DNA of 48,018 nucleotides from Bacteroidales bacterium (GTDB taxonomy: Bacteria; Bacteroidota; Bacteroidia; Bacteroidales; UBA12077): the NCBI GenBank assembly GCA_027859205.1, contig JAQIBH010000131.1, positions 1-48,018 of the forward strand, written 5' to 3'. The notes beneath the pieces are model-generated. The model worked only from the letters and a program-made list of their open reading frames with translations. It did not search any database and was not told the origin of the DNA. Positions 3,606 through 5,987 of the stretch are shown piece after piece; position 1 is the stretch's first letter, and the number at the start of each line of letters is the position of its first letter. Made by a program: the position numbers and the translations under genes.

Positions 3606-5258
3606 ATGCAAAAGAAATTAATAATAATTAGTTTAATAGCATTCTCTTTTGTTTTTGTTCAGTGTACAAAAAAGGACAAAAAAGAAGAATTAAAGCCTCA
3701 AACAAAAATTGAAAAGCTTTTGGCTAATTATGCGGATGTTAAACTAGAAACCGACCTTAGTGCATTAAGTGAAAATCAGAAAAAGATGATACCTCTGCTG
3801 TTCGTAGCAGCACAATTAATTGACGAGCTTTATTGGGCGCAAATATGTGCGTTGAGGGATGAAACAAAAGAGAGCATAACTGACGAAAAAGTTATGAAGT
3901 ATTTTAATATTAATTATGGACCCTGGGACAGATTAAATGGAATGGAACCGTTTGTTGATGGAGTTAATGAGAGATTTGATGGAGCAAATTTCTATCCTGA
4001 TAATATGTCTTACCAAGAGTTTGACGAATTTTCTAATTTGGGTAAGTATAATTCATATACACTAATTCGAAGAAACGAACTAGGGAGTTTACAAACGATA
4101 CCATATCATCAGGCATACAAAGAAAAGCTGGATAAGATAGCAGAATTAATGAATAAGGCAGCTAATTTTTCTGAGGATAAGGGGTTTGAAAAATATCTCA
4201 AATCACGTGCTAATGCATTATTAACCGACAACTATTACGAAAGTAATATAGCATGGATGCAAATGAAAGATAATTTAATAGATTTTGTAGTTGGCCCGAT
4301 TGAAGATTTGGATGATAGGTTATACTATACAAAAACATCATATCAGTCGATGATTTTAATAAAAAACAAACAATCAAGTAAGGATTTAGAGAAATATTCG
4401 CTTTTGCTTCCTTATCTTCAGAAGAATCTCCCAGTAGATGTTAAATATAAAACAGAAATGCCGGGAGAATTATCTGACATTATGGTTTATGATGTTATAA
4501 ATTGCTCAGGATACTGGAATACCGGAAGTAAGAAAATAGCTATAACATTACCACTTGATGGACAAGTCCAATTAAAAGTTGGAAGCAGAAAACTGCAGTT
4601 TAAAAATGTTATGGAGGCAAAATTTGAAAAAATACTACGACCCATAAGCGAGGTTTTAATTGAAGAAGATCAGCTTAAACATGTGAAATCAAAAGCTTTT
4701 TTCGAAAATACAATGTTTTATGAAGTAGGTAGTGCTCTGGGAATAAAAAATACCATAAATGGAAAAGGTACTGTACAAAATGCTTTAAAAGATCAATATA
4801 ATGTTATCGGGGAATGTAAGAATGATATATTAAGTTTGTTTTTTGTAACAAAACTTTATGAAATGGGCGAAATGAATGGAGGAGATTTAATGGATAATTA
4901 TGTTACATATATGACAGATGTTTTCAGATCCGTTCGGTTTGGTATTTCTAATGATCAAGGAGTTGCTAATATGATTAGATTCTATTATTTTGAAGAATTA
5001 GGTGCCTTTACTCGTGACAAGAAAAGCGAGAAATATAGAATAGATTTTGATAAAATGAAAGAGGCTATGCTTAAATTTTCTGAAGAAATATTAGTAATAC
5101 AAGGGAATGGAGATTATGAGGCTGCTAAGAACTTAGTAAATGAGAAAGGATTTATAAGAGACGATTTATTAAATGATTTATATAAGATTCAAAAGCAAAG
5201 AATTCCTAAGGATGTCGTATTTATTCAAGGACTTGATGTGGTTGGTTTAGAAAATTAA
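3606..5258 (+). CDS. M49 (dipeptidyl peptidase III)-related lipoprotein lacking the zinc motif
   Basis: A 550-residue exported lipoprotein: a hydrophobic signal ending in FVQC with Cys20, followed by a lysine-rich tether. The body resembles the Bacteroidota branch of M49 metallopeptidases, with an N-terminal YYESNIAWMQMKDN-type region (about 210-223), a 'GPIEDLDDRLYYTKTSY' stretch (230-246) and a C-terminal helical domain. Active M49 enzymes carry HExxxH (HELLGH) and a downstream EExxAE/D helix. Here the matching stretch reads YEVGSALG (372-379) and GECKND (402-407): the glutamate is kept but both histidines and one acidic ligand are gone. It therefore looks like a non-catalytic homologue or a protein with another activity. 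It is read alone and ends in a strong bidirectional hairpin. Family placement is from recognised motifs, not from a search. Confidence 0.75.
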   Translation: MQKKLIIISLIAFSFVFVQCTKKDKKEELKPQTKIEKLLANYADVKLETDLSALSENQKKMIPLLFVAAQLIDELYWAQICALRDETKESITDEKVMKYFNINYGPWDRLNGMEPFVDGVNERFDGANFYPDNMSYQEFDEFSNLGKYNSYTLIRRNELGSLQTIPYHQAYKEKLDKIAELMNKAANFSEDKGFEKYLKSRANALLTDNYYESNIAWMQMKDNLIDFVVGPIEDLDDRLYYTKTSYQSMILIKNKQSSKDLEKYSLLLPYLQKNLPVDVKYKTEMPGELSDIMVYDVINCSGYWNTGSKKIAITLPLDGQVQLKVGSRKLQFKNVMEAKFEKILRPISEVLIEEDQLKHVKSKAFFENTMFYEVGSALGIKNTINGKGTVQNALKDQYNVIGECKNDILSLFFVTKLYEMGEMNGGDLMDNYVTYMTDVFRSVRFGISNDQGVANMIRFYYFEELGAFTRDKKSEKYRIDFDKMKEAMLKFSEEILVIQGNGDYEAAKNLVNEKGFIRDDLLNDLYKIQKQRIPKDVVFIQGLDVVGLEN

Positions 5259-5300
5259 ACTAATAAAAAAGGGAGCAGAAGCTCCCTTTTTTATTAGTTT
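5257..5300. terminator. Bidirectional intrinsic terminator, perfect 20-bp stem
   Basis: A 20-base arm (5257-5276), a four-base AGAA loop (5277-5280) and an exactly complementary 20-base arm (5281-5300). The core GGGAGC/GCTCCC is followed by T-runs on both strands. It sits between converging genes and overlaps the stop codons of both, so it should terminate both transcripts. Confidence 0.93.
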
Positions 5301-5854
5301 GTTTCTTTATCTTTTTTGGGAGGTTCAAATCCATATGCAATACCTTTTACTTCGTACGTTGGAGCTTCTCCAAAACCTCCTATTGATTCTTCTTTTGTAA
5401 CCAAAACAATCATGCCTCCAAGTCCAGCTGCTTTTTTCTGGAGTCTTATCATAGCACTTTTTTTCGCTGATTTTGCACTTCTGCTTCCTGCAGAAGAGCT
5501 TGCTTCTACAAAACCCAATTCATATAAACCTTCTACATCATTTTTTTGGTTGGTAATAATTACAGTTTTCCAGTCTCCTTCTTCGACCATCATCAAAACA
5601 GGTTTGTTGAAAACTTCTTTTCTTCCATTACTAAAAACTACTTTTTGAATTTGTTTTCTTTTAACAGTTATTGTTTCATCCGAACCTGGTTCTGAGTATC
5701 GAACTGTTGCTGACGAAATATTTTTAACATCAACAACAAGTTTTCTTCTACCTAGCATATATATTGTGTCAAGCTTTACATCATCTTCTTGTGCAAGTAC
5801 AGGCAAACTCATAATAAATACTAAACTCGCTATAATTAAATTCTTTATTTTCAT
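5294..5854 (-). CDS. Small secreted protein of unknown function
   Basis: The best start is the ATG at 5854-5852, giving 186 residues; it is preceded by an AAAGGA-like ribosome site and gives a clean signal peptide (MKIKNLIIASLVFIMSLPVLAQ). A longer frame upstream would put non-signal sequence first. After cleavage the mature protein has a beta-rich first half, with a YML-G-RRKLVVDVKNI stretch and repeated Lys-Gln-Val patches. A Ser/Ala/Lys-rich linker follows (SSSAGSRSAKSAKKSA), then a KKAAGLGGMIVLVTKE segment that recalls the alpha/beta fold of small envelope stress proteins such as RcsF/DUF4156 types. I do not recognise a specific family. It is transcribed divergently from plsC. Confidence 0.75.
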   Translation of the reverse strand: MKIKNLIIASLVFIMSLPVLAQEDDVKLDTIYMLGRRKLVVDVKNISSATVRYSEPGSDETITVKRKQIQKVVFSNGRKEVFNKPVLMMVEEGDWKTVIITNQKNDVEGLYELGFVEASSSAGSRSAKSAKKSAMIRLQKKAAGLGGMIVLVTKEESIGGFGEAPTYEVKGIAYGFEPPKKDKETN

Positions 5855-5987
5855 AATTCCTTTATTTTCAGATTTAAAATGATCGTTCTTAATTTTTTGT
5901 GAAATTAAGAAGTAAAAGTTAATATTCAAAAAATATACCAATTTTGAAAATAATTTATAGTGAAAACAAATAATTAAATTAAAACGA

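Follow-up and report, generated by a model that had tools for sequence, protein, structure and literature searches.

The pseudo-M49 locus

The window, i.e., the whole 48,018-nucleotide stretch of DNA analysed here, contains an intact, full-length open reading frame on the forward strand (3606-5258) that encodes a protein of 550 residues. On the basis of homology and fold, we describe its product as a pseudo-M49 (DPP III-like) lipoprotein. The N-terminus is hydrophobic and leads to Cys20 in a lipobox-type context (FVFVQC), although the Gln that this genus has at the -1 position is atypical of a lipobox. The putative signal peptide (3606-3665, forward strand) ends at this cysteine, a pattern that suggests type II processing. 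Wherever the N-terminus of a pseudo sequence could be read (37 sequences, three families), a cysteine stands at the corresponding position. The window protein is, as far as its sequence indicates, probably a membrane-anchored lipoprotein.

Immediately downstream, a bidirectional, intrinsic-terminator-like hairpin (5257-5300) closes the gene against a convergent open reading frame on the reverse strand (5294-5941). The latter encodes a 215-residue protein with a signal-peptide-like N-terminal stretch, which is syntenic in most of the genus and has no match in Pfam or NCBIfam. The gene order of the genus is largely fixed, namely adk, obg, pap2, lplA, the pseudo-M49 gene, the reverse-strand open reading frame and plsC. 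At one locus (L035, 5647-6001) lplA is missing before the pseudo-M49 gene, with the other gene order retained. An operon partner was considered and rejected: the neighbourhood seen in the genus is absent from the other families, and no neighbour gene is common to all three; lplA is not constant within the genus; and the terminator-like hairpin follows the gene.

Fold and relationship to DPP III

A Pfam search with the window protein gave no match. The gathering score of PF03571 is reached by none of 17 pseudo sequences of the genus, the window protein included, and by 12 of 12 active relatives. The closest matches in the PDB are the DPP III structures from Caldithrix (6EOM, E=1.3e-95) and Corallococcus (5ZUM, E=1.4e-69), so that the original prediction of an otherwise well-kept M49-type protein is borne out. 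A structural model was obtained with AlphaFold2, using as input 24 sequences, i.e., the protein's own and related ones. This model has a pLDDT of 88.2 and a pTM of 0.85, with low confidence chiefly in the signal peptide and the linker. Foldseek gives it a TM score of 0.86 against 6EOM/5ZUM, and superposition by VIA yields a Z of 46.3 on 6EOM (2.2 Å over 509 residues) and of 47.1 on 5ZUM. The next distinct structural group after the DPP IIIs is PolE/DUF6421, at a Z of 18-19. By its homology and its predicted two-domain fold, the window protein belongs to M49 (DPP III) in both descent and fold.

The Caldithrix abyssi enzyme (CaDPP III), a member of the short, pentapeptide-motif M49 branch, shares the fold, a similar length and 33% identity with the window protein. 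It binds zinc and carries HEISH, EECKAD and the distal His460, whereas YEVGS, xE[C/S]KND and Gln451 stand at these places here. The Corallococcus protein (CoDPP III) likewise shares the fold, a predicted signal peptide and membership of the pentapeptide branch, but is an active zinc enzyme with the motif HELMH.

Loss of the zinc site

Residues 372-379 and 402-407 read YEVGSALG and GECKND, just as originally predicted. The first segment lies in a degenerate HExxH helix, F371-Y372-E373-V-G-S376-A-L-G379 (4716-4742, forward strand), in which HEVAHGLG has been altered. Both zinc-binding histidines are indeed gone, replaced by Tyr372 and Ser376, and the general-base Glu373 is kept. The motif had been read as a hexapeptide HExxxH whose zinc-site spacing was lost. 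This reading must be corrected, since the relatives carry the pentapeptide HExxH, including CaDPP III, CoDPP III and the protein's own paralogue (HEVAH). Because HExxH is the motif of the branch, the spacing is unchanged, and it is Ser376, not Ala377, that replaces the second histidine.

The second segment is a degenerate EExxAD helix, G402-E403-C-K-N406-D407 (4809-4826, forward strand), in which Ala is replaced by Asn406 and Asp407 is mostly retained across the pseudo sequences. In this helix, previously taken to be of the EExxAE type, the first acidic residue had been described as gone. The first Glu is indeed Gly in the window copy, at a variable position (E, G, A or S across orthologues). 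Glu403 is kept; it corresponds to the second Glu of EExxAD, the zinc ligand in CaDPP III (PMC5805324).

This pattern extends across the pseudo clade. Neither zinc histidine is retained in any of 34 pseudo sequences aligned, whereas Glu373 is present in all 34 and Glu403 in 32, the exceptions being Val in L175 and Thr in L216. According to the alignment, Gln451 (codon 4956-4958, forward strand) takes the place of the distal catalytic histidine, His460 of CaDPP III, in 34/34 pseudo sequences, versus His in 47/47 active ones. Asp438 (codon 4917-4919, forward strand) is likewise near-invariant by alignment (33/34), where active relatives have Gly or Ser. As the original prediction allowed for, we also looked for alternatives to a lost zinc site: the nearest homologues are zinc enzymes, and neither a new conserved His or Cys across the pseudo clade nor an alternative set of His ligands is present in the sequence.

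The carboxylates that remain raise the question of a repurposed enzyme, in which Glu373, Glu403 and Asp438 would form a site for another metal, or a metal-free one, and another reaction would take place in the DPP III cleft. The near-complete conservation of these three residues speaks for this explanation, as does the precedent of PolE/DUF6421, Fe- and pterin-dependent oxidases with a DPP III-like fold in which the peptidase motif has also been lost, and the site reused otherwise; the authors of the PolE study remarked that HExxGH and the catalytic His have been lost (PMC12614342). However, these oxidases are mostly actinobacterial, measure about 370 residues and use two His together with a Glu to bind iron; no His ligand is left in the window protein, which departs from the DUF6421 motif, HE/DxxH...E, in both histidines. 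PolE thus illustrates that repurposing of the fold is feasible, yet with its His and Glu ligands retained it is not a model for the window protein. The two exceptions at Glu403, the lack of any new clade-wide His or Cys, and former substrate-binding positions that differ between families count further against a repurposed enzyme, which we regard as possible but doubtful.

Loss of the substrate contacts

The functional residues of CaDPP III described in PMC5805324, to which we added the distal His, were mapped onto the window protein. The loss goes further than originally predicted: in addition to the zinc histidines, seven or more other catalytic or substrate-contact positions are replaced. 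In the substrate-contact segment comprising E233, L235 and Q247 (4302-4346, forward strand), Tyr242 of CaDPP III has become Leu235, at a variable position, and Glu254 has become Gln247. In the cleft segment comprising Y303, W304, T314, L317 and G319 (4512-4562, forward strand) the peptide anchors are lost, with Asp310, Thr311, Asn321, Asn324 and Glu326 replaced by these residues in the order given. Glu458 is replaced by Asn449. Glu240, Glu380 and Glu412 are retained, as Glu233, Glu373 and Glu403.

Losses are concentrated at functional positions. Active relatives share 136 positions with a conservation of at least 95%, and the consensus of the genus retains 118 of these; the losses affect 7 of the 12 functional positions among them, versus 11 of the remaining 124 (Fisher p=1.2e-4, the unit of the test being positions, which are not independent events). 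Trp304 (4515-4517) is invariant in the pseudo copies of the genus, where active relatives have Cys, Ser or Ala. Together with Tyr303, it would render the cleft more aromatic. The substrate-binding positions vary between the families of the pseudo clade.

A receptor that binds the N-termini of oligopeptides in the manner of DPP III, leaving them uncut, would be in keeping with the preserved cleft scaffold and with Glu233, which is retained in most members of the genus. Yet the substrate-holding residues of CaDPP III, i.e., Asn321, Asn324, Asp310 and Glu254 (PMC5805324), are replaced in the genus, and at the position of Glu233 itself 10 of 15 sequences of the Ancylomarina family have Val or Ser. 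We consider such a receptor improbable. The suggestion in the original prediction that the protein binds peptides is weakened by the same loss of the Asn pair and of the Glu and Asp residues.

Conservation and selection in the genus

The pseudo copy is present in 18 of the 20 genomes of the genus; the other two are G003 (83% complete), with fragments only, and G011 (93% complete), with one match. The motif F-Y-E-[VI]-[GA]-S-[AS]-L-G ... E-[CS]-K-N-D is fixed in 17/17 aligned sequences of the genus, and 227 positions are identical among 15 of them. The median dN/dS of the pseudo copy is 0.066, compared with 0.080 for the active paralogue, and in the Ancylomarina family the ratio is 0.078 for pseudo and active copies alike; these values are pairwise NG86 estimates (40 pairs with dS <3 for the genus), and they are approximate, with synonymous sites near saturation.

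A sequencing artefact or decay is ruled out by the recurrence of the motif in 17 sequences, by the separate assemblies from which these come and by the low dN/dS. The loss of catalytic residues would also be expected of a duplicate decaying towards a pseudogene, but the frames are full-length in three families, the median dN/dS contradicts decay, and both the 227 identical positions and the fixed synteny of the genus argue the same way; this explanation is scarcely credible. In sum, every orthologue has lost the catalytic residues, yet purifying selection acts on the protein, which at the level of sequence is what characterises a pseudoenzyme. The altered motif proves to be conserved and selected in orthologues, a check that the original prediction had called for, and the proposal that a zinc peptidase gave rise to a pseudoenzyme gains further from the preserved fold and from an intact paralogue in the same genome.

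An active paralogue

This paralogue (G000:C176:11003-12628; L002) carries HEVAHGLG and EEGKAD and is 49% identical to the window protein. The two are alike in length and in their lipobox-type N-terminus; the paralogue differs in matching PF03571, at 57.3 bits (cut-off 21). A second M49 copy is found in all 18 genomes of the genus that have the pseudo copy, and it is intact in the 13 that were read. In the Ancylomarina family, an active copy exists in most genomes with a pseudo copy.

The pseudo copy might be a regulatory subunit that associates with the active lipoprotein paralogue to tune its action or to place it in the cell. This co-occurrence is consistent with such a subunit, and so is the observation that CoDPP III crystallises as a dimer (PMC9820243). 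Against it, G113 (98% complete) and G214 have the pseudo copy but no active copy; in G423 the pseudo copy is intact (L187) and the active copy is split by a frame change (L215, G423:C1:1146200-1148200), possibly through a sequencing error; and in the genomes seen, the two genes are widely separated or sit on different contigs. Because G113 has only the pseudo copy, a partner role towards the active paralogue is unlikely in general, which narrows the partner role put forward in the original prediction, and we rate a regulatory subunit as unlikely overall.

Distribution and origin of the pseudo clade

The same signature marks further pseudo-M49 proteins of family f90 (G113, G214, G301 and G414, with a Trp variant in G365) and of the family of Ancylomarina euxinus, where position 372 is Tyr or Phe, position 376 is Ser, Asn or Asp, and position 451 is Gln. 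A more degenerate member is seen in G365 (L218, 7472-9118; also L161 and L216), which reads WEIADGLG and ETTKSEM and has lost the zinc Glu as well. A DNA-pattern search ([F/Y]YE[IV] plus a small residue) of 393 genomes from the order and a sample of 295 across the class returned M49 matches confined to the window's genus and f90; this pattern misses Phe and Trp variants, so that the clade may extend further.

In trees calculated with FastTree and rooted on CaDPP III and CoDPP III, all 32 pseudo sequences included form one clade, with a support of 1.0, and of 0.999 and 0.994 when the active-site columns are removed. Convergent loss in each family is thus unsupported. Family f90 is not recovered as a clade of its own, the branching inside the pseudo clade is poorly resolved, and so is its attachment among active M49s. 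The tree would be compatible either with one ancestral loss or with a single loss and later horizontal transfer. That a single monophyletic clade spans nearly the whole genus, f90 and the Ancylomarina family, and hence at least three families of Bacteroidota, shows, on the available sequences, that the pseudo state is old.

The surroundings of the gene differ in the other families. In G301, of family f90, the pseudo-M49 gene faces a convergent gene for a bacterial alpha-2-macroglobulin (L224, 3951-9461). In the Ancylomarina family the order is constant: a PgpH-like 7TM-HD gene comes before the pseudo-M49 gene, which is followed on the same strand, after some 80-150 bp, by one encoding a TonB-dependent receptor (L055, 3633-10180; L219, L220, L221, L222, L223). 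The top NCBIfam matches of this receptor are of heme/hemoglobin types, below the cut-offs. This neighbour is a lead for an uptake role in the Ancylomarina family, and it is no evidence for the window's genus.

Proposed role of the pseudo-M49 proteins

The zinc histidines, the distal His, the equivalent of Tyr242 and the Asn, Glu and Asp substrate anchors are lost, and the remaining scaffold is under strong purifying selection. With two of the three zinc ligands gone, DPP III chemistry implies that the catalytic zinc would not be held and that dipeptides would not be cleaved. Thus, we consider it very probable that the window protein is a pseudopeptidase. The strength of the selection argues that it is in use, in a job other than cutting peptides.

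Asp438, Gln451 and an aromatic residue at 372 across the clade show continuing constraint on the former active site. This makes a site for binding, or a repurposed one, more likely than a passive scaffold. The protein would act by binding, through a two-lobed DPP III fold with a cleft re-lined by the aromatic residue at 372, Trp304 (in this genus), a mostly hydrophobic residue at 317, Gln451 and Asp438. It may serve at the membrane as a scaffold or receptor to which a small ligand or a partner protein binds. We lean towards this binding role, by a slight measure, and hold the two proposals in conjunction, i.e., a pseudopeptidase that works as a binding protein, to be somewhat more probable than otherwise. 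A more speculative proposal, to which we give limited credence, is that these proteins form a branch of the DPP III fold in Bacteroidota that is undescribed, became fixed long ago and functions as an envelope receptor (or as a new carboxylate-site enzyme), with the TonB adjacency in the Ancylomarina family hinting at uptake of a non-peptide ligand.

Pseudoenzymes are well known in other families. For M49, no description of zinc-less proteins was found in the open-access literature searched. Annotation of pseudo-M49 proteins as DPP III on the basis of homology would be wrong. The clade presents a clean case, with active and dead paralogues that are about 50% identical, often in one genome, and in some instances in named genera (Ancylomarina); such pairs make the role of a dead DPP III open to testing.
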